A stretch of DNA of 64,000 bases from Corynespora cassiicola. Taxonomy: Eukaryota > Ascomycota > Dothideomycetes > Pleosporales > Corynesporascaceae. Under the pieces are notes generated by a model. The model had not been told where the DNA came from. It ran no database searches and was given only the letters and a program-made list of their open reading frames with translations. The translations under genes and the position numbers were made by a program. The stretch covers positions 1,240,001 to 1,304,000 of the forward strand of contig JAEUWY010000016.1 in assembly GCA_022059125.1 (NCBI GenBank), in the 5' to 3' direction. Below are positions 11,796 through 31,100 of the stretch, in pieces (the stretch's first letter is position 1; each line of letters starts with the position of its first letter).

Positions 11796-13559
11796 TCATA
11801 CCTTGTTAGGTTGTTCTTGTACTTTAGATCCGACCCCTGCTTTCAGACCGTCTACATATTTCCCATCCTTGCTATGCACGGTCCCTGCATCGATTCCCTC
11901 AATTGACTCTGCATCGAACCCTGTTACGACCTTTGGGATCTGCGTTTCTGCACTCGGAAACACGATATGTGTGGTATAGTACAGGAATATACTAACAAAA
12001 AAACCGTAAAGCCAGTTGAAAGAAAAGAGGTTTTTAAGTCCGGTTGCAAGTTCTATATCAGTATTCACTTTGTTCGCCAACCCAGGAAGTACAGGCACAA
12101 TGGTGACAAAAGTGGCAAGGAAGGCGCGCCAATTCGTGCCGAATTTGTTGCCGTACGAATAGATGCCCCTTGGGTCATAGAGAGCTGGGACATCATAGCG
12201 GCGGCGCTTGACCAGCCAATAGTCAGCAAAGAGAATTCCCGCCATGGGGGCCATGAAGATCGCATAGGCAGACATGAAATTGAGGAATGCTCTGCCAGAG
12301 GCGATGATAATCCAAGGACAGAGCGCCCAGCCACCGACAAGAGAGACAAGAATTGTCCCGCGGCGAACATTGAACCACTTTGGCGCGAGGGTGGTGATGT
12401 CATTGGCGAACGAAATGGCATTTGCGCTGATATTCACACAGATTTGGCTTAGGAGCCAGATTGCAGCGCAGAAGAACGTGGCTGCACGCCCACCGGAGGT
12501 ATCTTGCCACTGGTCCATGATTTCAAATGGCGTCCAATACGGTACACCCCAGATTTGTTGGGCGGCTGACGCGGAGATGATGCCCATAAGCGCAGTCAAT
12601 GTCTTAAGGATGGGAATGACCGGCAGTTGCCAGTAGTGTGCGTGAGGATCATTGCTGAAGCGTGAAAAATCGGAGATGTTGACAGCGAGTGTGCTGTAGC
12701 CTCCAGTTACACTGGTCTAATCATATGAAATCAGTCTGATATCCCCATGGGTGTTGAATAGATCACTTACCATGCTCGATAGCCAGAGCCAAGCCCGCTC
12801 GGCGCCATGAACCTGGCTAGGTCTTGCAAAGAAGGCACCGTTACCACCGGCCTTGACAGCGACCCAGACGACCGTTCCAATGGCCACAGGTGGGGTTAAG
12901 ATGGTTTTGACCCAAAAGATGGATTGTAGCCGGTGAGTCGGCACAAGCAGGAGCGGAAATTGGATCAGCCAGTACAGGGAGTACGAGCACATACCAGCAG
13001 TCGTGAGGCCGGCTGATGCTGGAAGATGATTGGGGATGTTTCTGTAGCTTGGCCATATGGACGTGATAACAGCTGTCACGCAGGTACCCCCATTTGCAGT
13101 CTGAACCCCAAACCAGAACATTGCCAAAATGGCGCGGCTGACCACGGCAAAGTAGCTGAACCAATACCCAAAGCTTGCTCGTGAGGCAATTGGAAATGGG
13201 ACATGAAGATTTGCTCCAATTGCTCCGTTGAGAACAGTCGGGATTGCGTTGCATATGGAGGCTACCAGGGTGATGATGACGGCATCTGTGGGGGTAAGAC
13301 CAAGGGTGACGATGGCGGATCCAGTGCTCCAGGTAGCTATGGTGACCAGATCCGAGAACCAATAAGTGACGAAAGCGCTTTTCCCCCAAGTGCGCTTTTC
13401 GAGGGGCACCGGGTCCATATCGGCGTTGGTCCAGACATCTGAAGGTGCAATGCTGCTGCTTTGCTTGGGTAGCTTCCAACTCGCAGGCTCTGTAAGCCGG
13501 AGCTTTGCCTTTTGCTTTGCGGCATGGCTTCGATCTCGAAGCCTGAGTTTGTCGAGCAT
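11796..13559 (-). CDS. NCS1 nucleobase/allantoin-type permease
   Basis: Exons 12771-13559 and 11796-12716 (GTAAGT donor, TTAG acceptor, 54-nt intron, phase 0) give 569 residues, normal for fungal Fur/Dal4-type NCS1 carriers. The ATG at 13559 is the first in frame. Family marks are WKLPKQSSSIAP and WTNADMDPVP before the first helix, then about twelve hydrophobic segments, and NISDFSRF (residues 276-283) spanning the region after the splice. NCS1 carriers import uracil, uridine, allantoin, purines or related bases with protons; the exact substrate cannot be read here. It is divergent from the Zn2Cys6 regulator, and their shared promoter holds a TCGGCCGA palindrome. Supplying substrate to the neighbouring oxygenases is an inference. 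Confidence 0.92.
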
Positions 13560-14089
13560 GTCGTCTTTGTCTCTGCAGATAAACGACTGGGGCAACGGAG
13601 ATTTATTTAAGCCTTAGTGATGGGATGCCATGACAGTTATCTCCAGGCATCAGACGGAATCTTACATCCAGCCAGTATCATTGGTATCTTGGGGATTATG
13701 GGGACCATGGCCCGGGTGCTGCTATCGGCTAGATAACTGGCTGCCACGGGCCAGGCCACACCCATGTTTGCCCCGCGGATCCGCGCTCGATTCTTGTCCT
13801 AGCATGATGCAGCGCAGTCGTAGATTGGCCGTATTGTTGTCAGTACACAAGGATGATAGAAGAGTGGAGGTAGCGTGGTGGAGATTCAACGGATTCGGCC
13901 GATGTGCCCCCTTTATCGGTAGCCAGTCATGTTGATCTCGATAACGCCTAAGACGTGATTGGTCAACCCCAGACCAGAGGGCTGGCATGCCCTACAAACC
14001 TTCCACTCTACTTATATTACTACCCAGGAGCCTCGTCCGAAGCCCGCCTGGCTGCTACAGTCCGAAATATCTGGCCCGAATGTCTCCCA
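13560..14089. promoter_or_regulatory. Divergent promoter: NCS1 permease / Zn2Cys6 regulator
   Basis: A head-to-head intergenic region of 530 bp containing one TCGGCCGA palindrome (13895-13902) and a GATAA word at 13732-13736. GATAA words are bound by AreA-like nitrogen regulators in filamentous fungi, but so short a word is common by chance. Confidence 0.65.
13895..13902. promoter_or_regulatory. TCGGCCGA palindrome, copy 1
   Basis: The palindrome (context ATTCGGCCGATG) joins a CGG and a CCG half-site with no spacer. The same 8-mer occurs twice in each of the other two divergent promoters of the cluster. Candidate operator for the Zn2Cys6 protein encoded at 14090-16129. Confidence 0.6.
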
Positions 14090-16129
14090 ATGTCGGGTAC
14101 AGCTGCACGAAGTCGCCTCGCGTGTTCTTCCTGCACCCGGCGAAAAGTCAAGTGTAGCAAGACTACTCCGTGCACCAACTGTGTCCGAAGGGGAGAGCAG
14201 CACACCTGCAAAGCCGACCTTGAAGACAACCACAATTCGCCCCTACAACGCAATGACTCGGAGCTTAATTACCTACGACGGAGAGTTGCTGAACTCGAGA
14301 GCGAGGCCGAGACACGTACGCTACATGCCTCCCCAGAGGCCTCACCGGTTCCAGCAGATGAGACAGTTATAGAACCTGCGCAGCCTACAGAGTCCGTGGC
14401 GGAAACAGTGATCGCTAATAACGACGCTGTTGATCATAATGCTGCGTCCATCCTCGAGTTCCTAGCCTGGGGTAGGCGAAAAGATCCCAGCTACCAGGCT
14501 GTAGTCTCTCCCGATGTCCACCGAGATAGCATGAGTACGGCTCTCGACCGTTTCGACGAATTCTCTCAGCTTTCCGTCCTTCAGCTCTTGCTTCCGAGCG
14601 CACGCCAAGTTTGGCAGTTAGTCGACTATCATGATGGATCTTTGCTATGGTACCATGGATCGTACTTTTCGCCCACCTTCCGCGCTCAACTGGAGACCTT
14701 TTATACTCAGCATGATGGTCTCATAGACGCACCGTCCGTAAATCTTCAATGGGTCGCGCTCTTGTTCTCCATCATGGCAGCCACACTTGCTTGTGCACCC
14801 CCTGCGCGTACCTTTGCTTGGGGCTTCCGGGACCAAGAGAGAGAGACTCTCTCCAAACGCTGGTTCCAAGCCATCATCACCTGCCTGAATGAGGCTGATT
14901 ATACGACAAACCTTACTATATTCTCATGCCAGGCTATTGCGACAGCAACCATCACAGCACACATGTTGGGTTTCAGCAATACACAAAGTATACATCTGGC
15001 CGCCGCTGTACGGATCGCTCAGTCGCTAGCACTTCACCGCCTGGGACCGGACACCTGTGGTAATACTGTTGAGAAAGAGATTGGGCGACGTGTGTGGTGT
15101 CAACTCTGTAGCCAGGATTGGTTCGGGATACCTTTCTCAGAGAGTTATCTCATCAATCCCGTGTACACGACGTCTGAGCCTCCAGCTAATTGTCACGACC
15201 ATGATATGGTACCATTGCCATCCAATACTCCCACCATAACGAGTTACTGTCGCTTCTTACGCGAGATTGCCGCTATTATGCCCCAGTTGCAGGATGGTTT
15301 GATGTCATGTAATACGCCATACACACGTTATGAGCAGGTTCTCACTTGGGACGCGCGTATGCGATCGCTCGCAATCCGTGAGCGTCCAGTATTCTTAACC
15401 AATGTACCCCTAGATGAAAGTTGGCCACCATGGATCCCATGGGCACGAAGAGCATTAGCCATTAGCTCCAGTCACAAGATCATCATGATTCATCGCTCCT
15501 TTCTCTCGGACAGCTTCACCAACTCCGCATTCGCCTTTACGCGTCGCACATGTCTTGCGGCTTCTAAAACAATAATCAAGGAGTACAAATTTGTCGTTGA
15601 GGAAGACGGCCCAATCCTCTGGATCCACCAGGCTTTTGCGGTTGCAGCATCTATTATACTTCTATTGGATGTCCTTCATCGAGACCCTAGCGAGGCTGAA
15701 TGCACAGAACATCGGCAACTGGCTGAAGATGTTTTACACATTCTCCGTACTTGTCGCAACAGCATGATTGCCACCCGTGGTGTCAAACTCCTCAATGCTC
15801 TCCTTAACGAGGTGTCGAAAATATTGAGCGGTGATTCAGCAGGACAGGGAAGGAAGCGCCGAAGGGATGGATCAATGAAGTTCGATGTCTCAACATTTGC
15901 AAAGACATTTTGTGGCGATAATGCGACCAGACAGCCACAAATATCTCAGCAGGCGAGCCAAATGGACGTCTCGCCATCGAACTACGAGCTGAATGATGTT
16001 TCTGCGCGTCCTGAAACAGTAAACTTGGAGCACTTTGATCTGAACTTTGCGTTTCCTCCAGCAGGGTTGGATAACAATGACTTTGGAAACTTGCTGTATT
16101 TAGCAAACCATGATTTCTCAATACTCTAG
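14090..16129 (+). CDS. Zn2Cys6 transcription factor, probable cluster regulator
   Basis: A single exon encodes 679 residues from the first in-frame ATG. The binuclear zinc cluster sits at the very N-terminus with Cys at 12, 15, 22, 28, 31 and 40 (spacing 2-6-5-2-8), including the basic stretch TRRKVK. A fungal-specific transcription factor middle region follows (from about FSQLSVLQLLLPSARQ onward) with HMLGF and LHRLGPD motifs typical of it. The C-terminus is acidic and Asn-rich and could be an activation region. The gene lies inside the metabolic cluster and is divergent from the permease. Its stop codon is only 23 bp from that of the convergent hydrolase gene. Proposed binder of TCGGCCGA (inference). 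Confidence 0.92.
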   Translation: MSGTAARSRLACSSCTRRKVKCSKTTPCTNCVRRGEQHTCKADLEDNHNSPLQRNDSELNYLRRRVAELESEAETRTLHASPEASPVPADETVIEPAQPTESVAETVIANNDAVDHNAASILEFLAWGRRKDPSYQAVVSPDVHRDSMSTALDRFDEFSQLSVLQLLLPSARQVWQLVDYHDGSLLWYHGSYFSPTFRAQLETFYTQHDGLIDAPSVNLQWVALLFSIMAATLACAPPARTFAWGFRDQERETLSKRWFQAIITCLNEADYTTNLTIFSCQAIATATITAHMLGFSNTQSIHLAAAVRIAQSLALHRLGPDTCGNTVEKEIGRRVWCQLCSQDWFGIPFSESYLINPVYTTSEPPANCHDHDMVPLPSNTPTITSYCRFLREIAAIMPQLQDGLMSCNTPYTRYEQVLTWDARMRSLAIRERPVFLTNVPLDESWPPWIPWARRALAISSSHKIIMIHRSFLSDSFTNSAFAFTRRTCLAASKTIIKEYKFVVEEDGPILWIHQAFAVAASIILLLDVLHRDPSEAECTEHRQLAEDVLHILRTCRNSMIATRGVKLLNALLNEVSKILSGDSAGQGRKRRRDGSMKFDVSTFAKTFCGDNATRQPQISQQASQMDVSPSNYELNDVSARPETVNLEHFDLNFAFPPAGLDNNDFGNLLYLANHDFSIL

Positions 16130-16152
16130 ATACTATCAATACCAGTTTTTTT

Positions 16153-17077
16153 TCATGCGCTAATCGACTTTATGAGTTCTTCTAGTACTGTTTTTACTCC
16201 TGTCAAGTCCTCCAGAATAGGCTGGTGACCACTTCTCACAACTTCTACCCTACTATTACTCCCAACCAATGCGCTCAGTTCTCGGGAACGCTCCACAGGG
16301 CTTATCATGTCCTTGTCCCCAGCGATGAACACACACGGCGCTTCGATCTTTCCATAGTCCGGGTCCTCGTGTTTTGTGTCTACAAGTGCCTCGCAGGTTC
16401 TCGCATAACCCTCTGGATCCGAGGCCATCACGGCCCTTCTCACAGCCTCTCTTGCAGCTGGATCAACTGCTCTCTCCGATCTTTCGCGTAGAATAATTAG
16501 TTGACACACGTGTGAAAAATGTGATCGAAACTTACGTATCTTCATAAAAATTCGATTTTGTCGCTGTTTCGGCCGCTAGTTCAAGCCCTTTCGATCGCAC
16601 GCTGGCGGCTAGATTGAGCATTCGCTCTCGAGCTGCAGGTATGTGCCCTGCGGCTCTTCCTGCTCCGATGAGTGCGAGCCCCTTGACTTTGTTGCTGTTT
16701 TTGGAGGTATAGTGCAATGCAACGATTGCGCCAAGGGAGTGGCCGACGAGGACAATTCCAGTCCTTTTGGTTTGCCGTTGGTCTGGAGATGCTTCCAAGT
16801 GTGATATGAGGTGGTCCAAGTCGGTGACATGGTCTGCGACTGAGATTCCTTCTCTGGTCCCTGTTAAGGGCGTTTTGCCAAAGCCTTGGAAGTCGACAAG
16901 GATAATTCTATATGTTTGGGGTAGGTAGGGTAGAAGCGGAACAAACGTCTCGGTTGATCCTCCAAGGCCGTGTAGACAAATAATTAGAGGTCCTTTTGGA
17001 TTCCCCGTTTGGACAAAGTGGGTTTGCGTCCCTGATGGTGCAATGTAAAATAGTGAATCGAGGGCTGGGATGGCCAT
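16153..17077 (-). CDS. Alpha/beta hydrolase, PcaD (enol-lactonase)-like
   Basis: Exons 16536-17077 and 16153-16480 (GTAAGT donor, AAAG acceptor, 55-nt intron) give 289 residues. The nucleophile elbow is GHSLGA with Ser114; the other likely triad residues are Asp236 in GDKD and His266 in SGHQP. The oxyanion motif HGLGG is at 36-40. The MASDPEGYARTCEAL segment is like that of 3-oxoadipate enol-lactone hydrolases (PcaD), but the substrate could be any small ester, lactone or amide. The gene is divergent from TauD dioxygenase A and shares a promoter with two TCGGCCGA palindromes. In the cluster it would fit hydrolysis of a product made by oxidation (inference). Confidence 0.88.
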
Positions 17078-17223
17078 TTTTAGTTTTGCTTCCTAAAATT
17101 GCATACAATTGAGCAACAGTAACTTGTCAATGGAAGCTGTGATCGAGATTTTGACAAAAGTAGAATGCGCCTCATTTCTTGGAAGAAAGTAACTCTCAAA
17201 AAGCCAGTCAACACCTAGGATAC

Positions 17224-17231
17224 TCGGCCGA
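17224..17231. promoter_or_regulatory. TCGGCCGA palindrome, copy 2
   Basis: Context ACTCGGCCGACT, in the hydrolase/dioxygenase A promoter. Candidate regulator site. Confidence 0.6.
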
Positions 17232-17267
17232 CTTCAAGGGTGGCATATCAGCTACAAAGAATGGGGC

Positions 17268-17275
17268 TCGGCCGA
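17268..17275. promoter_or_regulatory. TCGGCCGA palindrome, copy 3
   Basis: Part of the perfect 10-mer CTCGGCCGAG (17267-17276), 44 bp from copy 2, which is about four helical turns. Confidence 0.6.
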
Positions 17276-17455
17276 GTGCTTTGACAGCCTTATCTACTGG
17301 TCGGTCTAGTGTAGATCGCATGATAAGAACGATCCCGAGGTCTAATTCGAAAGAAGACATCACGTGACTCATACCTAGATCACGGACAGGTATACATCTC
17401 CTGTATATCTCATTTTGGTGGTTTGTTGCATTGAGAAGATACAGTAATATTCAGA

Positions 17456-18860
17456 ATGGTCATTACAGCAGTTGTAACCGAGGAAGCTGCCAGTCTCCGC
17501 CTTGCGCCCCAGAAAGAGCAGCATGTACTTCCTCACGCAGAGAAAACCACCGGCCGATTAGTCCCCATCAAACACTCAGAAAAGAGCCAAGTAGACTTTG
17601 GGGCAGAAGTCTATGGCATTGATCTGAACCACTTCACCGATGCAGACTTCCAATTTATCTCTGATGCCCTCCACAAACACAAGCTACTTGTTTTTAAAGA
17701 GCAACCTGAGATGCTCAAACCTCAACAGCAATATAAGTTGACCTCATGGTGAATATTTACATGAAATTTAGTGACACAGCTAATTATTGATAAAGTTTTG
17801 ATCCCGAAGAAACGACTGGCGGTTTTGCCCACGGTCACGATCCCTTGCTTACACATCACAATGGCGTGGACATTTATGGAATTCCAAAAAGGCCAGCAAT
17901 TCCCTGCCAGCCGCAAGTTCACATTCTTGGTCGCGGCCCGCTTCCGTCGGATCACTATGGCTTTCCACCCGGGTTCGAAGTTCAGGGTATCGACCACGAG
18001 GAGTTTCATCTGCCGCCGCACATCAGTCCGGAAGAAAGGGAGGCTGGTGCATCGCGCTTTTACCAATGGCATTTCGATGGCTCTTTATATGGAATTCCAC
18101 CCCCACGAGTCGGGTGCCTGCTTGCTGTGCGTACACCAAAAGGGCCTAATGTCACAGTACGATGGGAAGATGGCTCAGGCACCGAGATGAAACTTGCCCC
18201 CGGTGCTACGGCCATGGTGGCTGGAAGCCGTGCCTTGGGCCTGCTTGATGACGAGACTAGAAACATTGTGATGCATAGCAGAATCGAATATGCACCACAT
18301 GCGTTTGTGTGGATGTCGACAGCACACAGCACGCGCTTGGGCCATCTGTTAGAGACGGAAGGTCTGGAGAAGCCCCTAGACCAATTACCAAAATGGGAGC
18401 GAAGCAAGGTCTGTGTGTACCCCATGGTATGGACAAACCCAAGGACTGGTGAGAAATCATTGCAAGTACACGGGCAGGGTGCCTTCAAATTACATCTGAA
18501 AGACAGCCCGGGGGGGCAGGAGAGGGTGGTGGAGGATCTGAAGGAAGTGAGAGCATTCATGGATAAGTCAGTATCCCCATGATTCAAAAATGTCATTGAT
18601 TTGCACTAATCTTATATGGTTTACAGGATCATGAAGCCGGTTCTACAGCCGGAGAATATCTATGGCCATCCACATCAGGAACAAGACGTCATTCTTTGGT
18701 ACAACCGTGCATTATGGCATAGCATTGTAAGGCCTTCTAACATAGCAATCGAACGTCTGAAAGAAACTGACAAGCTCCCCAGACTGAATTTCCAAAGTCA
18801 TATGGCCCTCGGGTGATGCATCAGTGCAATATTGCTGCGAGCGATCATCCTTCTGGATAA
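17456..18860 (+). CDS. TauD/TfdA-type 2OG-Fe(II) dioxygenase A
   Basis: Four exons (17456-17748, 17796-18566, 18627-18726, 18783-18860) give 413 residues; introns are 47, 60 and 56 nt. The last junction matters: without splicing out 18727-18782 the frame stops early and loses the conserved end YGPRVMHQCNIAAS. The iron ligands are His190 and Asp192 in WHFDGS and His386 in LWHSI; Arg398 is the expected 2OG-binding residue. It is related to XanA-type enzymes and to dioxygenase C nearby, but differs in residues around the substrate pocket (for example AGSRALGLLDDE where C has FSNVQTYDLMTEE), so its substrate is probably different. These enzymes hydroxylate a substrate while decarboxylating 2-oxoglutarate. 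Confidence 0.88.
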
Positions 18861-19455
18861 TATTCAATACACCAAAATCTGGAACTGCTGCAATAAATAT
18901 TTCCTATGCAATAAGTAGCTATATATACGATAAATTTATTCGACCTCATTGATTTCTCTACCATATACATGATCTTTCATTGTCTTGGTGCTGTTTATAG
19001 CACATGTAAATTCGGTCGCACTTGGATCCCCGCGTGATGCACATCAAAATAGCTGAGACCAAATGCTCGAATCCCAGGTTAGAATAAATCTTTATATTAA
19101 TATTCTCGTATTCTCTGAACATTCGGCATATCTTTCGACAAGAATGTACTAATCCCAAGCCGACAAATCTACTCCAAAGAACCGGTCATGGCCTCTGAAA
19201 ATGCTTATCATACATAGGCCCAAAATACCCAACTTATGAGTATTTGGCATCGTGAATTATTATCAATCTTCTTCATTGCTAAGGAAAACTCTGTTACAAG
19301 TACCAAAACAGATGATTTATTATGAAGTCTTCACTGAACATGGATCGACTAGACACAGCTTTACAATTTCGTCCATTTTCCCGATAGAATATAACCTGAA
19401 TAGATTGAAAAAAAATATACGCAAACCATGTATTAAGAAACTTGATATAAATGTA
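18861..19455. other. AT-rich intergenic region between convergent genes
   Basis: Holds the 3' ends of dioxygenase A (+) and dioxygenase B (-). AT-rich, with no gene and no TCGGCCGA element seen. Confidence 0.5.
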
Positions 19456-20496
19456 CTATGCTGCAGCTTGTATGGGTCCTGCACCCGACGGTACCCCTCT
19501 AGCGTTTTGTTCCTTTGGCTCCTTAGCAGCCAGAGTCGCCTGCAATGCTCCATAATAGCGTTCCATTGCCTTTCTGTTGAATTCTTCACCAGTGACGACC
19601 GGATATTTCCCCTTTGGACCCTGGATAATCGCGTCCTTCACAGGCTGATTGAAAAAGGCAATACTGTATCGTTCCCCGTAGTAATCGCCCTCCTCACTTG
19701 GGGCCTTGACACGATGGAATGTACTCTTGAACCGGTCGTCGCTCCAACTCATCAGCAAGTCCCCGATATTACAAACGATGACACCAGGCTCAAACTCGAC
19801 CTTCGTCCATTCATCACCCAGGGCGTGTTCTGTGACTACCTCGCGCCCAGGGCAGATCTCCAACCCAGACTGCCCTTCGCGCTGGAAGAGCAAAGTGAGG
19901 AAGCCCCAGTCGGCATGTGCTCCTGCGCGATGGTATATCTTGCCGTCGTTGGTCTTTGGCGTTTCGTAGTAGTGGAGCAGCCTGAGCGTTGACTGCGAGT
20001 CAGGTCGGTTGACGTCGTGGTACTTTGTGAAATAATCATCATCGAATCCCAACCCCCGCGCGAGACAGCGCATCAGCTTCTCCGAAACGCCTTGGACGCG
20101 ATGCATGAACTTCAAACTGTCGGACTTGAAGTTGGGCAAGACCTCGTCTCCGACCCAGCGACCCTCCATATTTTCGCCGAATTGTAGCTGATATGATTCT
20201 TTTGTGTCGGGGGCGCCTGTCGATGGTCGGACCTGAGACATCTTCTCATATCCCACGTTCTGTGGGGTCCAGGGAACAGCGGCCTTTGCTTCGTCGGGCA
20301 GGTTGAAAAACGACTCGGAGACATTGAACATGGCTTGCACTTCGGGCTCGGTAAGACCATGATCCTTCACTGCGAAAAAGCCGACCTCTTCAGCGGCGCG
20401 GCATAGCTCTGCTGTGATCTCGTCGATGCGATTGTCAAAATCGCGTAGCGAAACCACGGGTACCTCTCGATCGACGTATTTTGTCGGTTTAGCCAT
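19456..20496 (-). CDS. IPNS-type 2OG-Fe(II) dioxygenase B
   Basis: A single exon encodes 346 residues from the ATG at 20496; the open frame runs further upstream without conserved sequence. The N-terminal DIOX_N region begins EVPVVSLRDF, with VGFFAVKDHGL. The catalytic half has His194 and Asp196 in HADWGF, His261 in STFHRV and Arg277 in RYSIAFF, the 2OG-binding RxS motif. This is the isopenicillin-N-synthase/ACC-oxidase class, different from the TauD class on either side. Fungal thymine-7-hydroxylase belongs to the same broad class, but the match is not specific enough to name it. It is divergent from the XanA-like gene and shares a promoter with two TCGGCCGA palindromes. The Ala/Pro/Gly-rich C-terminal tail is unusual and probably disordered. 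Confidence 0.92.
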   Translation of the reverse strand: MAKPTKYVDREVPVVSLRDFDNRIDEITAELCRAAEEVGFFAVKDHGLTEPEVQAMFNVSESFFNLPDEAKAAVPWTPQNVGYEKMSQVRPSTGAPDTKESYQLQFGENMEGRWVGDEVLPNFKSDSLKFMHRVQGVSEKLMRCLARGLGFDDDYFTKYHDVNRPDSQSTLRLLHYYETPKTNDGKIYHRAGAHADWGFLTLLFQREGQSGLEICPGREVVTEHALGDEWTKVEFEPGVIVCNIGDLLMSWSDDRFKSTFHRVKAPSEEGDYYGERYSIAFFNQPVKDAIIQGPKGKYPVVTGEEFNRKAMERYYGALQATLAAKEPKEQNARGVPSGAGPIQAAA

Positions 20497-20777
20497 TTTG
20501 TGTGATGTGAGGACTCGGTGTGGTAACGGTTTTTTCGAAGATTGCTGTAAATGATAGAGGACGAGATATAGAGTAATTTTCAGGATGAAGTTAGAGTGGT
20601 AGTTCGAAAAAAAAAAACTCAAAGAGGATTGCGATCCCCTCACTCTTAACAATGCCGATATCCAATCATGCAGTCATGTTTGAAGGTAAAGCTCCTGGTG
20701 GCTAGGGCCGGCTCACCCCGCACGAAACTCCATCTCCACCTATGCAACTCAATATCGCTCATATTTTTTGCCAAGCT

Positions 20778-20785
20778 TCGGCCGA
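20778..20785. promoter_or_regulatory. TCGGCCGA palindrome, copy 4
   Basis: Context CTTCGGCCGAGG in the dioxygenase B/C promoter. The flanking CCGAGG also fits the FarA/CTF1-type half-site, an alternative reading. Confidence 0.6.
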
Positions 20786-20852
20786 GGTCGATATCTCCAT
20801 ACTTTATGCTAGGAGTTTACAACGGAAAGAGGGTATAGGATCGTGTAAGACC

Positions 20853-20860
20853 TCGGCCGA
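20853..20860. promoter_or_regulatory. TCGGCCGA palindrome, copy 5
   Basis: Part of the 10-mer CTCGGCCGAG (20852-20861), the same extended palindrome as copy 3 in the neighbouring promoter, followed within 7 bp by GATAAG. Confidence 0.6.
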
Positions 20861-21089
20861 GCTTGCGATAAGCATGTATTCCAAGGTTATCATGAACAAT
20901 TCGAGTATTGACATGGAATATATCAATGATCTAGCGAAATTGGCGATATATCATACTCGTGTCCATGTAGTGAATAAAGCACGTACCCATTGCCCAGACG
21001 CTTTTGCAATCACAGCAGATTTCGTACCAACTGCGCATTTTCTATCCCTGCGCAATATTCAACTCTAGGAGTCCTGTTTCCACCTCACG

Positions 21090-22374
21090 ATGGCGCCAGG
21101 CGTATTTGCTCCTGAACCGACTTTCGCGGTGAAACCCATGGAAAGGGATGCCGCGGCAAAATACAACTTCGGTGCGGTGGCGGATGGTGTAGATCTGGAA
21201 AACATAAGCGGTCAGTTTCATTCTATATCGTGAAACTCTGGCCTGAGTATCCGCATAGATTCGGATGTCAAGGCTTTATCAGACGCTATTTGGACACATA
21301 AAGTTGTAGTCGTCAAGGGCCAAAAGCACATTCACCCCATCAAGCAATGGGAGTTGGTTACCCGCTTTGATCCCACGGCACCCCTCGTACACTCGCACGG
21401 GGATCTCAAGACATTCAACAAGAACAGCGGCATCCTCTCGGTAGGCTTTTCCGTTCCTTGTTGAAAATCTGGACTAATTTGAAATCAAGAGCTCTCGGGA
21501 TGTCCTCGCCGTACCAGGTGCTGAGAACGTGCGGATTATAGGAAAAGGACACCAGGGAGAGGACCACTATGGTATCAAGAACTATATTATCAGGAAGCCT
21601 CTATCGCATGGATGGCATAATCTTCCTCTTTCAGATGAAGATTTTTCGACCGGTCATACGCGCTTTCAGCGTTGGCATATTGATGCTCCACTGTATGCTC
21701 GCGATCCAGCTTGGTTCACAACCTTGCGCTGTTTCAAGAGACCTACCTCGCCCAATGTCACCATTCATTGGGATGATGGTTCTGGCTACACCATGCCTTC
21801 TGAACCAGGCCTCACTGCCTTCTTCAGTAATGTTCAGACCTATGACTTGATGACAGAGGAGGAGCGGCGCATTGCAGACCATTCTTGGGTCGAATATGCG
21901 CCCCACCCCTACAAGTGGATGTCAGACTGCAGGGCTAATTCTCATGGTCTTGGTGTTGTTAGCCAAGGCAAGGAGAAGGCCCTACATGAGCTTGGTGAGT
22001 ATGACGAGAAAGATGTTAAGAGATACCCTATGGTATGGGTAAACCCCGTCACAGGAGAAAGAGCTTTCATGGTACACGGAATTTGTGTAAGACGAGCATT
22101 TATGAGATACTCTCCAAATGAAGAGCCGGATATTATCGATGATGTGGTGAAGATCCGGTCCTGGCTGAAAGGCATACAAGAGCGCGTACTGAAGCCAGAG
22201 TACATCATGCTTCCAAAAGTGGAAGAGGGTGATATCATAATGTGGGCAAATTACCAAATGTTCCATACTGCAGTAGATTATCCGGATCATATGGGCGACC
22301 GTACGATGCATCAGGCAAATATCGGGGCAAGTAGTGGGCCGATTGGACCAGTTCCAATCCCGGCCCTAGGATAG
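21090..22374 (+). CDS. XanA-like TauD dioxygenase C (probable xanthine dioxygenase)
   Basis: Exons 21090-21210, 21259-21440 and 21490-22374 give 395 residues; introns are 48 and 49 nt. It closely resembles fungal 2-oxoglutarate-dependent xanthine dioxygenase XanA: VKQWELVTRFDP-like (IKQWELVTRFDP), GENVR-like GAENVRIIG, HIDAPLY, GLTAFFSNVQ, DHSWVEYAPHPYKWM, YPMVWVNPVTGE and DYPDHMGDRTMHQANIGAS. Iron ligands are His164, Asp166 and His360; Arg372 should bind 2OG. XanA oxidises xanthine to uric acid in fungi, in place of or beside molybdenum-dependent xanthine dehydrogenase. The assignment rests on motif recall, not alignment, so a related purine-like substrate is possible. It sits at the right edge of the cluster and is divergent from dioxygenase B. 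Confidence 0.88.
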
Positions 22375-25189: not shown

Positions 25190-28100
25190 TCAAGCGGAGA
25201 CCATTTGCGAGGCAGCTTCGTCCTTGTATTGTTGCAGTTCGGCGAGCTGGGCCTGGAGCTCGCTAATGATATCGGACATGGGACATGCTTGCTCGAGGAT
25301 CGGGCATGATCCGAATGGGCGGACCATGTGGCGGAGCGCTAGCGTCGTTGCGCACGTCTCGATGCGGGAGATCTGGTGTTCCACAAAATTGATCAAGAAT
25401 CGATCGGTGATCTCTCCCCCACGGTTCTTCATCCTCTCTAATAATGCCGTCTCCGGTGGCTTCAGTTCCACAGAACCTGGATTCTCGAGCGTGCTGCACA
25501 GCATCTCGAGGCGAAGACTGACATTCCAAAGGTCCCATACAGTTTCCGTGTCGATGGTGAGTTCGCTTCCGGGCATCTTCTGTCCGGCTTGGGCGGCCGT
25601 AGCTTGCGGCTGCTTCTGCTGCTCGAGCTGGCGTTGTACGGCCAGACGACTGGCCAGTGAGTGAGGGTACATCAGGTAGATGTACTCTGGGTTCTCCAGA
25701 CCCTTGAGACGTCGCTCTCCCAGGTCCTTCACTTCGAAGCCCTGGCTACTAAGCGAACGCAATTCTTGTCGGATGGCTTGGCTCATCGCATCCTCGCCCA
25801 GCTGTTCCTCGGATCCAGCAGAGTTGCTCCTATCGCCTTCGATGTGCGTCTCCAAAAGCCGTTGGATCTCAGCAATAAAGTCGGACGAAACAGTAATCTG
25901 ACCTCCATCGGCAACGGAAGAGATACGAGAAGCTCGGTTGACCATGGGACCAAAGTAGTCCATGCGCTTGGTGACGGGATCGACTTCGCATACAGGAGTA
26001 CCCCAATGGATACCCATACGCACTGACAGACCACGGAAGATCACGTTACCATCGGGGTCGACCACTTCTTGGCCATTCACACTGCTGAGGATCTCCTGGG
26101 GCCACGGAACATCCAGAAGCTGACTCTGAATCGTGAAACACCACAGCAGGGCCGAAGTAACTGTAGGGAAAGCCACCATAAAAGCATCTCCTTCAGTTTT
26201 CACTTCATAGCCTCCAATGATACGTAACTGTCGGCGCATCAGCTCGTTGTGCATCTTGATGGCTGAGCGCATAGCGATTGGATATGTTTCCCAAAGAAGC
26301 GTAGAGTTCTTGATATCCGTAAATACCAAGCTAACATCTCCGGTCGGAGCGTCCACCTCATTGTCGAGTCGAGCTAGCTTGGAGTCGTTGGGTAGGTTAC
26401 GGTTGCGTTTGTTTCCCCTTCGGTTCCATGGGTAGTCGTCGGGCGAGCCAGAAGGTCCCATTGACATGCTGTGCGTTCGGAAGCGTGCGCGCTGTTTGCT
26501 CTTGAGGTCGCTAACGCCGATCAGCATCACCATGATCTTATTTGTCGCACCAAAGGCTATTGCGAGGTCCCGAAGCTTCTGTGCCGCACGCATCAAATCA
26601 TCGCGGGCGGACCGCGCGACGTCGACGGCAAAATCGGGCGTGAGATAGTCCCAAAGTTCACGCGATGCCATGAGAATCATTTCGTCGGTATCGCCGAGTG
26701 TCAGATTGAGAATATGTGGTGCGGCAATGACGGAAGGAGACATTTGGACGTAGCCAAATGCTCGAGATACTTCGAGAACATCGTTGAGTTTGCCCTGGCG
26801 TGAGACGAAACCACCCGCTTCACGTATCCTCGCTCTTTCGCCGGCTTCGGCGGGGTCATGCTTGCGTGTGAGCATCCTGTGACCTCCTTCGGATCGGATA
26901 AGAAGTGCCTGCGCATCTCCCACATTTGATATGTAGAGCTCCATCTCTTTCAGGTACAATACGGTGGCCACACTTCCAGAGTTCAAGTCATCATCGCTGA
27001 GATCCGGGACTGCCCCGCGCGATTGTGTCGACGGAATCGTCATGTTGTTCTTATCCAGAGCCTGCGTCGCCACGGTGGCCAGCTCCTTGTTGAGACCAAG
27101 ATAAGTCCGTCGCAAGGCATCTTCTGGTGTTTCCTGCGGTCGCAAACGATCCAACTCATCCGCAAAACGATTTTTGAAATTGTCGTACAGGTACTTGGCA
27201 ATCTTGGATCCGCTGCTGGCAAGCGGTTGTCCATCGAAAAGGCCCAAGATTTGCTCGTCGTCGTGACTGCGAAATCGCGGAATGACCATGTCCATAGTGG
27301 AGATGTGTTCATTCCGGCCTAGACTGTCAGCCATTCCATACGCCATGGTGCCCACGGCAGAGCCTGATGTTCGCACTCTCCTGTCTTCGGTTTGCTCAGG
27401 AACAGATGGAACCATCAGAGTGACGTCCATCAGTCCCAGTACTCTAAGATTAATGAGAGATGTGAAGTCGGTGAGGTCGCGACCCTCACGCATTGCAGCT
27501 CCTCCGCCACTAAAGGCGCCGGTGGGCTTGATCTCTAATCGTTTGTTACCTGACAAATTGAGGTACTTTAGATTGTGGTTCCAGTTCCAATTCCAGTCAT
27601 ACGGCCAATTCGAGACGTTGTACTTCAAGGAATTGCTGGCAACATCCAGAATGGCGAGTTTGGCGACTTTTCCGAGTTCAGCAGGAAGGACTTGGAACTT
27701 GTTGCTGTTGATGTGGAGAACCTTGAGCGAACTCACTTCCTCCAAGTCTTCGGCGGGGAGGGAGGTCAGGTCATTGCCAGACAGGTACAGTTCTGTCAGA
27801 TGTTGCCATCTTCGCAAGGTGCGAGGTGGAATGTCATAAATGAGATTGTAAGAGAGGTTGACAATCCTCAGCTCAGGGAGCAAACAAAGCTCATCGAACA
27901 CGTCATCTGTGAGCCTGTTATCGGCGAGGAAGAGGTGGCGCAGCGATCCGGCAAAGGTTGTAACCATCCTGTTAGAAAGGCTAGAATCCTTGCGGGTTAC
28001 CGGAGTTAGTGTTCCTTCGGTGGGTGCACGGGATTGCATCGACTGCTTTCTTGTATTGGATGTGCTTGCCGTGTTGTACGAAGCCATTGAACCCTTGCGT

Positions 28101-31100
28101 TGGGAAGTTGCTGGAGAAGGACCCGACGAACTAAGATATCCGGCAGATGCCTGACTTGGACGGCGGTTGGCAAAATCCTCGAGTTTCCCAAGCTCTTCGT
28201 AGCTTGGACTCGGACCTAGACCAGGGGTGGACAGCGGAGTTGCTGCATCCATACTAGAATTAGCAGCATCTCCATTCATGGTATTTTGTGGCGGCGGCGC
28301 CGTAGGTTTTGGGAATCCATCCAGGACGTTGGACGATACGTTCAGTGTCTCTAACCGTCGCGCATACCAAATCTCAGGCGGAAGCCTTCCAAGATTGTTC
28401 TCACGTACGTCAAGATATCGCAGCTCCGACAGCCGTCCGATCTCGGCAGGCAAGTCATCCAAGGTGTTGCGTGCTACACTCAGATGCTCGAGTCTGTAAA
28501 GTCTGCCGATATTAGAGGAGAGCGACGAGAAATGGTTCTTGTCGAGGATGAGCTTAGTCAAACCGGAGGTGTTCTGAAACAACTCTTCTGGCAGCTGAGC
28601 CAGCTTCGCAGAGGCAAGGTTGAGGGCGGACAGCGTCGGCACAGGTTGGCGGATATCGAATCGTGTGACTGGATTGTGGTTCATATGTAAAACCCGGATC
28701 TTGGGGAAGGAGCCCTCAAAAGCAGAAATGGAGTTGTGGCCAATCATCAGGTATTCCAACCGTGGCAGTCGAGACATTACGTCCATACTAGTGAGTGCAT
28801 TGAATCGAACATCGATCTCTCGCAAATTAACCAGATTGCTGAGCGAAGAAGGGAAGCTGCCCGAAAGTTTGTTATTCGTGGCCCATAGTCTTTCCAGACA
28901 TGTAAGTTGGCCAATCCTTGGTAGGCTTGAAATGGAGTTGAAGCTGATATCAAGATCCACTAGGGTCCTAACTTCGCATAGGAAATCTGGGAATTCATGC
29001 AGCGAATTCGAACTCAGGTTGAGACTACGGAGAGCGCGATACTGTCCGAAATATGCTGGTAGTTGTGTTAACCTATTATTCGAAAGGCGCAGGCCGTGCA
29101 GACTCTGCAATTTGTAGAGGTCCGCATGGTCGAGCTGCTGCAAGCGGTTGTTCGAGATATCCAGCATGGTCAACCGAGTTGCCAGACCAAGACTGGGCGG
29201 GAGTCTTCGTGCGTCGTTGCTCGTGTATTTTATCTCTCGGAGGTTAGTGCAGGCTTGCACAAAATCCTTTGGAATATCTAAAGAAAGATTCCGTGAGAGG
29301 TTAAGGGAGATGATCTCGGTGGCCTTCTGGTACAGCGTGATGGGGATGGTGATGAGATTCCTTCCTTGCAGGTCGATATGGCTGAATTTTTGCATCTTGC
29401 TGAACCCGGGATCTTTCTCCAAGCTCGAGTATCCGCTCATCTTGGCGGGAAGGAAGGTGAATCTGCACAGATAGCTATTGTCCTCCCTCCCGACTTCCTC
29501 GAGACGATCCGCGTCCGTGTAGCCAGCCTGTTCGAGGAGTCTCTTCTGGATGAGAAGTGGGCGCTCATGCGAATCGAGCTGTCTTGACGTGTCATGCTTG
29601 CGCATGACGATATGATAATTGTCTAGTTCGTCTTGTAGTAGAGTCTTTTTGCCCAAAATCTGGATAATCTCCGAGACAGAGGTGTTGAGGGTGGCGGATA
29701 AAGTTGCGAAGGTGGAGTCGACCCTAAAGATACGGACACAATACGTCTTCGAGCTCTCCTCCTCTTTTGGTGTTACAGCCGCTTCGTCGAATTCCCCATG
29801 CCTCGGCATGTTCTCATCGCCCAATCGCTTGACAGCCCAGGAGTCTGGTGCATCCCATGCTCCATTGGCGTCTTCTTTGATTTCTGGGCCAACTTCTTCC
29901 CCGGGCCAAGTCGTCGTTGGCGCTTCGCCCGTGGGCGGTGTCATGGGCGGTTGCTGGGGCTGCGGATGAACAATGCCCTCCATGTGGCTCAGATCGGTAT
30001 CCAGACTCCACAGATTGCCCGTCTCAAAAGTGGCTGGATCCACTTCATTGGGATCTCTCCCAACGGGGGGCTGGTCCTGCATCTGAGGAGGTTGCCTTGA
30101 ACGGCCCAACGGGCCCAGGCGTCGATGCTGAGGTCTGCCATCCTTGCCCTTGTTGTGCCTGTCTTTTTGCGAATCGATGCTGGGCTTCTTCGCAAAGGTT
30201 CCGGGCGAAGGCTCAGGTCGCGGGAAGTTGGCGGACTTGATCGACGGCTGCAATGAGACTTGGGAGGCATTCGCATTGGCATTCCTCAGGTGGTCTGGAT
30301 ATGAACGGTCTGATTTATCCTTTCTGTTCCCCCTAAAGCGGTCCAAAATGGAGATCTTCTTGGATGTACTCGGGGAGGAAGCCGAGGCGTCGCGGGACAT
30401 CTCACTGAAGGAGCTCGGCGTGGGGCTCGACGGACGAGGCATTAGGTTGGCCCGGGAATTGAGTGCGACGCTGAGCGCGGAAGGATACGGCTGCTCGCGA
30501 CGAACGCTGTAGGAGGAGTCTTCCCGGCTGGTCACGGGTCGCAGCGGGTACGGTTGGCTGATCTCGGTGCGGGCGTCGGACGTCTTGATGTCGTCTTTGC
30601 TTCGATTTGAGCGGTGACCGGGGAGTCGCAGCTTGTGCGGGCCCTTGCCTGACTTGGTTGAGTGCTGCTCCGACGATGGGCGCCCATTCTCACCTGGCGG
30701 GGGCGCGGGTGCATCCTAAACTTGGACGTCAGTCAGAAGCTCTTGCTGTGGGCGCAGATGCGCAGATGCGGCCTGAGACAAATCAGGGTAACCACAGGCG
30801 GAATCGCGGGACCTTGGCGAGCTGTGGAAAGAGGATTGGACGGGATGGAAGCTTCTCGCAGAAGGGCGCAAAGGCGCAAAGGCGCCACGCGTAGCTGGAC
30901 TCACCTTGAAATCCTGAAATTCCCACGGCGTCACCTCTGAGGATGGCGCAGGTGTGCGAGGGCGAGAATTTACGGGTGACCCTGGCCTGCTGTTTAAACT
31001 ACTCCCTAGCGTATGATTGAGCGAATTGGTGCGGTTCCGAGTAACGCCGCGATTAGATTGCGTCTCTACCGCATACGGCGTGGGCAAGCTGGTATCGGAG

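Follow-up and report, generated by a model that had tools for sequence, protein, structure and literature searches.

A six-gene cluster of Corynespora cassiicola with three Fe(II)/2-oxoglutarate oxygenases, an NCS1 permease and a shared promoter palindrome: a possible nitrogen-scavenging pathway

Which compound would be imported and broken down by three different Fe(II)/2-oxoglutarate (2OG) oxygenases encoded beside a hydrolase, a permease and a Zn2Cys6 regulator? The question is raised by six adjacent genes at positions 11796 to 22374 of a 64,000-nucleotide stretch of the Corynespora cassiicola genome (contig JAEUWY010000016.1), the whole of which is called the window here; the genome analysed comprises 44.35 Mb in 23 contigs. 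On balance, we think it probable that the six genes form a co-regulated nutrient (nitrogen-scavenging) catabolic cluster for an imported small planar N-heterocycle. A catabolic cluster had been proposed in a first-pass annotation of this DNA, and its co-regulation is now backed by a palindrome present in all three divergent promoters and by the linkage of the hydrolase and the three oxygenases (A, B and C) in other fungi. The cluster is laid out as follows (aa, amino acids).

11796..13559, minus strand: NCS1 permease, 569 aa; exons 13559-12771 and 12716-11796; PF02133, 6e-98
13560..14089, no strand: divergent promoter of permease and regulator; TCGGCCGA at 13895-13902; seven HGATAR sites
14090..16129, plus strand: Zn2Cys6 regulator, 679 aa, intronless; PF00172, 28.7 bits (cut-off 21)
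16153..17077, minus strand: alpha/beta hydrolase, 289 aa; exons 17077-16536 and 16480-16153; PF00561, 5e-22; candidate triad S114, D238, H266
17078..17455, no strand: divergent promoter of hydrolase and A; TCGGCCGA at 17224-17231 and 17268-17275
17456..18860, plus strand: oxygenase A, TauD/XanA-like, 413 aa; exons 17456-17748, 17796-18566, 18627-18726 and 18783-18860; PF02668, 3e-21
19456..20496, minus strand: oxygenase B, IPNS/thymine-dioxygenase type, 346 aa, intronless; PF14226 and PF03171
20497..21089, no strand: divergent promoter of B and C; TCGGCCGA at 20778-20785 and 20853-20860
21090..22374, plus strand: oxygenase C, a second TauD/XanA-like protein, 395 aa; exons 21090-21210, 21259-21440 and 21490-22374; PF02668, 5e-21

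The outer coordinates mark where the stop codons of the permease and of C end. The positions, order and three divergent pairs are confirmed as first annotated, and Pfam assigns each protein as expected.

The palindrome TCGGCCGA was first spotted by eye, and the count of words across the promoters was made afterwards. All five of its copies in the window lie inside the three divergent promoters (one, two and two copies), and when all shared words were counted in their combined 1501 bases no other 8-mer was present in each of them. In 2000 random triples of segments with matching lengths, there was no case of an 8-mer occurring in all three, at least five times, and nowhere else. In 100 shuffled windows the count averaged 1.19 and always stayed below five; the genome-wide frequency (756 copies per 44.35 Mb) leads to an expectation of about 0.026 copies in the 1501 promoter bases. 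The extended form YTCGGCCGAR is found three times in these promoters and 193 times in the genome (Poisson P about 5e-8, uncorrected for the choice of a motif already seen); it shows little genome-wide enrichment over its backward control (193 vs 160), and allowing one mismatch gives no enrichment in the window (9 vs 8.4 expected). When the half-sites were separated by 0 to 14 bases (TCGG-Nx-CCGA), spacing zero alone was found in the cluster promoters, and none of the three contained a site with a spacing of 1 to 14. The genome has three places at which two copies of TCGGCCGA are separated by 30-90 bases, and two of these places belong to the cluster (backward control 0 and 1).

The sole pair outside the cluster, at C12:1064955-1065017, is flanked by genes that resemble, by eye, those for an acyl-CoA ligase and a DsbA/GST-kappa protein. 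This place was not counted as a member of the regulon, about 0.8 such pairs being expected by chance from 756 copies.

Dimers of Zn2Cys6 proteins often bind palindromes of CGG triplets, and TCGGCCGA is likely to represent the operator of the cluster's own regulator. The nearest solved chains to this regulator are those of Cep3 and HAP1, and its next best place in the genome is 35% identical. The three promoters also contain 12 HGATAR sites, compared to a summed shuffle mean of 4.9, and the excess between permease and regulator may be taken as weak evidence of nitrogen control.

Linkage in other fungi was read from equal-sized contigs of the protein matches and from locus tags, for species present in both lists and entered by hand. 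A and C were found on equal-sized contigs in 20 of the 27 species common to both lists, the hydrolase and A in all seven, the hydrolase and C in seven of eight, and B and the hydrolase in three of four. On chromosome-sized contigs an equal size denotes the same chromosome only, and several of the shared contigs are small (8,952, 18,419, 25,036, 69,746 and 91,390 bases). The locus tags give closer neighbourhoods: 009559, 009560 and 009562 for the hydrolase, A and C of Verticillium albo-atrum; 004914 and 004915 for A and B in Gaeumannomyces; 009328 and 009329 for B and C in Ascochyta; LTR85_006677 and LTR85_006678 for B and C in Meristemomyces; and 07266 and 07268 for C and A in Magnaporthiopsis. 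B and C are four locus numbers apart in Pestalotiopsis fici. A and C are numbered consecutively in Pyrenophora teres and Kalmusia, where B may be missing between them. Since the contig sizes differ in Pyrenophora teres in spite of consecutive tags, some of the mismatches in contig size may stem from different strains within one protein cluster. Hydrolase, A, B and C are thus found together in other Pezizomycotina as well. In Microdochium trichocladiopsis, two A-type paralogues (P0077 and P0100, 74% and 63% identical to A) both have the contig size 2949242, and A may be duplicated on that contig.

The first-pass annotation had all six frames splicing cleanly; one correction is needed, in A, where comparison with relatives shows that the two-intron model has a wrong tail. 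A third intron (18727-18782) restores the conserved C-terminus PRVMHQCNIAASDHPSG, giving A 413 aa with its stop at 18860. Among the matches listed, the best ten homologues of A all have 413 aa, like the corrected model, the homologue search and the Pfam search having both been run with the uncorrected two-intron version. The best three homologues of C likewise share its length of 395 aa, and the hydrolase intron is backed by a Polyplosphaeria protein of 64% identity, whose alignment runs across the junction without gaps. Full-length relatives occur in many fungi; the best match is 84% identical to A, and the corresponding figures are 78% for C, 64% for the hydrolase and 99% for B (to the Corynespora cassiicola protein P0241). 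Given these relatives and a promoter palindrome far above expectation, the genes are not a chance assembly.

The genera in which relatives were found include the plant-associated Colletotrichum, Alternaria, Pyrenophora and Verticillium, which bears on a different reading, namely that the cluster degrades or detoxifies a plant defence compound (e.g., an alkaloid or a phenolic) that is taken up by the permease and inactivated by the oxygenases. Some B-type records are named leucoanthocyanidin dioxygenase, and degradative clusters with a “naringenin 3-dioxygenase” are catalogued in Trichoderma in the available part of PMC10735191. Against this role stand the GATA sites in the permease/regulator promoter, which hint at nitrogen control. 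Moreover, relatives of A or C also occur in Exophiala, Baudoinia and Amorphotheca, which are not known as plant pathogens, and NCS1 carriers are known for nucleobases, allantoin and vitamins. We regard a plant defence compound as a somewhat unlikely substrate, and nitrogen scavenging from a heterocycle as the preferred reading.

The nature of that heterocycle was approached through the individual proteins. The permease passes the NCS1 family model TIGR00800 ncs1 (365 bits, cut-off 353), and residues W117, Q121 and N318 of Mhp1 are identical in it, as is W220, in a weakly aligned stretch. These four belong to the hydantoin (base-binding) site of Mhp1, so that the uptake of a base-like ring, as first proposed, gains indirect support, and a flat amide-bearing ring would be a reasonable cargo. 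Of the four, W117 is mentioned in the available part of PMC3951388; the available part of PMC10788122 names no residues of FurE. The hydrolase resembles enol-lactonases and, more weakly, RutD-type enzymes, in both cases far below the NCBIfam cut-offs; NCBIfam supplies no specific name for it, the best families being of the PcaD type.

Oxygenases A and C share 34% identity; with the product of a third, intronless gene at C2:850720-851748 (L042), A shares 36% and C 33%. Both have a complete set of Fe(II) ligands, formed in A by the HxD motif (H190, D192) and the distal H386, as in the HxD...H arrangement of XanA, and in C by the HxD at 164/166 and H360. The substrate site of XanA comprises Q99, Q101, K122, E137, D138, R352, Q356, C357 and N358. 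On this numbering, A has a QPQ and an R..QCN segment equivalent to six of the nine positions (Q99, Q101, R352, Q356, C357 and N358). WHxD is present in all 120 matches listed for A and QPQV in 114 of them, compared to none of the 120 listed for C. The R..[HR]QxN pattern is fitted by 58 of the 120 A matches, all with QCN (53 of the 62 non-fitting ones are shorter than 380 aa), and by 118 of the 120 C matches, 115 of which have QAN and none QCN. Records for A and C across many Pezizomycotina, among the matches listed, are labelled “xanthine dioxygenase”, “TauD” or “hypothetical”.

The first-pass annotation had regarded C as the XanA-like enzyme; of the two TauD-type proteins it is A that shares motifs with the XanA-like paralogue of this genome. 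The paralogue, at C2:850720, matches nine of 12 XanA positions (Q99, Q101, H149, D151, H340, R352, Q356, C357 and N358) and differs at K122, E137 and D138; its residues also show the 50- and 191-residue spacing of XanA, and its tentative identification is anchored on this numbering. A TCGG-N6-CCGA site, TCGGAGGTGGCCGA, lies about 200 bases upstream of the gene. This is supporting evidence only, since the same pattern was present in two of the six loci examined and once in the window, far from the cluster.

In a midpoint-rooted tree of 26 rows, a branch with 100/100 support parts A and the C2:850720 gene from C and a fourth XanA-like paralogue on C4. The A rows make up one side of a 100/99 branch, and the C4 paralogue falls within the C rows with weak support; both the C2:850720 and C4 paralogues are on long branches and their placement is unsure. 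With a separate gene at C2:850720 and a clade of its own, A is unlikely to be the genome's XanA orthologue. Predicted structures for one orthologue each of A (pLDDT 80.5) and C (pLDDT 83.1) match TauD, RdpA, AAD, PlaO1, ScoE and others; the 50 matches listed belong to the TauD superfamily only and give no hint of the substrate. No bacterial or archaeal relatives of A were confirmed in one scan with two patterns.

Oxygenase B has thymine dioxygenase (5C3P) as its best match among solved structures (E 2.7e-32). It keeps the metal and 2OG ligands H214, D216, H271, Y194, R286 and S288 (5C3P numbering) and the equivalents of the thymine-contacting R190 and F292; F292 is not diagnostic, being kept in all nine loci of this genome that were compared, including the thymine-7-hydroxylase (T7H) orthologue. 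The full set of thymine contacts (N87, E122, R190, Y217, F292, N294) is not found in B. The equivalent of N87 was matched by HMMER and gapped by MAFFT, and W at 217, Q at 122 and Q at 294 are shared by all 15 relatives checked. The roles of the metal, 2OG and thymine contacts follow the available part of PMC4787775, in which W at position 217 is recorded for some T7Hs. The orthologue itself is found at C12:2165586-2166478, with all 12 checked residues kept, and B can be ruled out as the thymine hydroxylase of this genome.

These comparisons bear on the possibility of an accessory purine/pyrimidine salvage, in which A and C would be extra xanthine-type and B an extra thymine-type hydroxylase, acting on the ordinary substrates. 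A, with its QPQ and R..QCN positions, would suit such a role, as would B, which keeps the equivalents of R190 and F292 and is aromatic at position 217. The genome, however, already possesses the T7H orthologue with its complete residue set and a XanA-like gene preceded by a TCGG-N6-CCGA site, and QPQV is absent from C and its listed matches, so that we judge salvage of ordinary bases to be quite improbable. The same two genes, together with the differences of B and C at substrate positions, weaken the case for xanthine or thymine as the substrate. Domains of the xanthine-dehydrogenase family at two places and a uricase are also encoded elsewhere; since this genome is thus provided with xanthine-dehydrogenase-family domains, uricase, a XanA-like gene and a thymine hydroxylase, the cluster is probably intended for another compound. 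The substrate of the preferred nitrogen-scavenging cluster is probably purine- or pyrimidine-related, and neither xanthine nor thymine; we favour a modified nucleobase, or an N-heterocycle like one, that is taken up and oxidised stepwise.

Several observations weigh against this reading. The linkage in other fungi covers the hydrolase and the three oxygenases, and the permease part of a joint query gave no row among the 120 matches listed. The expectation that the genes are kept together is thus borne out, on four of the six, for the hydrolase, A and C, and least clearly for B, which shares equal-sized contigs with A in five of 11 species and with C in six of 13 (six of nine without four added rows). 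B lies on another contig in all three Aspergillus species present in its entries and those of A, and therefore has a role outside the cluster. The palindrome is only 1.3 times as frequent in the genome as its backward control (756 vs 563), and the HGATAR excess is confined to the permease/regulator promoter (7 vs 1.3), the other two having 2 vs 1.4 and 3 vs 2.2. B differs at the water-mediated thymine contacts, with Q in place of both E122 and N294, and C is without the QPQ and QCN motifs of the XanA substrate site; the argument for a nucleobase-like substrate consequently draws mainly on the permease and A.

On the nitrogen-scavenging reading, the NCS1 permease would import a small planar N-heterocycle. 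The regulator would sense the heterocycle or one of its products, bind TCGGCCGA in the three bidirectional promoters and turn on all six genes, perhaps with nitrogen control by a GATA factor layered on top. A, B and C, as three different Fe(II)/2OG enzymes, would carry out successive hydroxylations or demethylations of the ring, leaving an ester, lactone or amide for the alpha/beta hydrolase to cleave. Binding of the palindrome by the regulator, the order of the steps and the class of substrate are what we infer from the sequence. A more daring version, which we hold to be unlikely, is a pathway free of molybdenum enzymes and P450s, in which the three oxygenases, acting one after another, would remove methyl or other side groups from a modified nucleobase (e.g., a methylxanthine or methylpyrimidine) and hydroxylate it, under a Zn2Cys6 regulator that recognises the TCGG/CCGA half-sites of UaY and Ppr1 at zero spacing.

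The fourth XanA-like paralogue (C4:187377-188640, L043) is next to genes that resemble, by eye, those of an O-methyltransferase and a flavin monooxygenase, and its surroundings are possibly a secondary-metabolite locus. This neighbourhood, and the fact that 2OG oxygenases and Zn2Cys6 regulators are common in such clusters, would agree with the six genes being a small tailoring cluster for a secondary metabolite without a core synthase. No core synthase lies between the six genes, an NCS1 carrier is included, and A is up to 84% identical across orders, unlike biosynthetic genes, which generally evolve fast; a tailoring role is therefore considered very improbable beside the catabolic one. To the right of the cluster, a long frame on the minus strand (25190-30715 of the window) shows leucine-rich repeats and phosphatase-like and cyclase-like parts by eye, and is probably a fungal adenylate cyclase.

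The cluster can be compared with several known systems. Sites of the form TCGG-N6-CCGA are those of the UaY and Ppr1 regulons, governed by regulators of purine and pyrimidine metabolism. The cluster has the same TCGG/CCGA half-sites, but its spacing is zero and its promoters contain no 6-spaced site; a zero-spacer palindrome would be a further example of how Zn2Cys6 regulators discriminate their targets by spacing. With thymine-7-hydroxylase (5C3P), B has in common the fold family, the metal and 2OG ligands and the R190 and F292 equivalents, and it differs by W for Y217, Q for E122 and Q for N294.

The hxn nicotinate cluster of Aspergillus nidulans, as described in the available parts of PMC5746545, PMC8478523 and PMC9304392, likewise combines a pathway-specific regulator, divergent gene pairs and carriers, and it also includes a T7H-like 2OG oxygenase (HxnY, 349 aa; PMC8478523) and hydrolases for ring opening and nitrogen release. 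Unlike hxn, the six-gene cluster has no molybdenum hydroxylase, flavin enzyme or amidase. Its carrier is of the NCS1 type and its regulator a Zn2Cys6 protein, as opposed to the MFS carriers and C2H2 regulator of hxn, and the hxn genes named there include neither of its two TauD-type oxygenases. Elsewhere in the genome, a T7H-like oxygenase (C8:2134491) and a molybdenum-hydroxylase domain (C8:2163377) occur about 28 kb apart within C8:2134491-2164268, and are perhaps parts of a nicotinate (hxn-type) cluster; this oxygenase competes with B (346 aa) as a candidate for HxnY.

No description of the six-gene cluster was found in the openly licensed literature, subscription papers being outside the scope of the search. 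XanA paralogues had already been remarked upon in 2014: the available part of that review (PMC5611559) reports paralogues in which the iron site is intact and the substrate residues are altered, for example three in Amorphotheca resinae (a species also among the A matches listed, P0064), and states that they must have other substrates, giving them neither function nor cluster. A and C share the XanA-like branch of the TauD proteins, A as a sister subfamily and C further off, in a genome where another gene fits the XanA numbering. New here are the clustering, a candidate operator and the split into A and C subfamilies. By placing both subfamilies in one genomic context, with a candidate importer as well as a candidate operator, the cluster turns the function of the XanA paralogues into a directly testable question.

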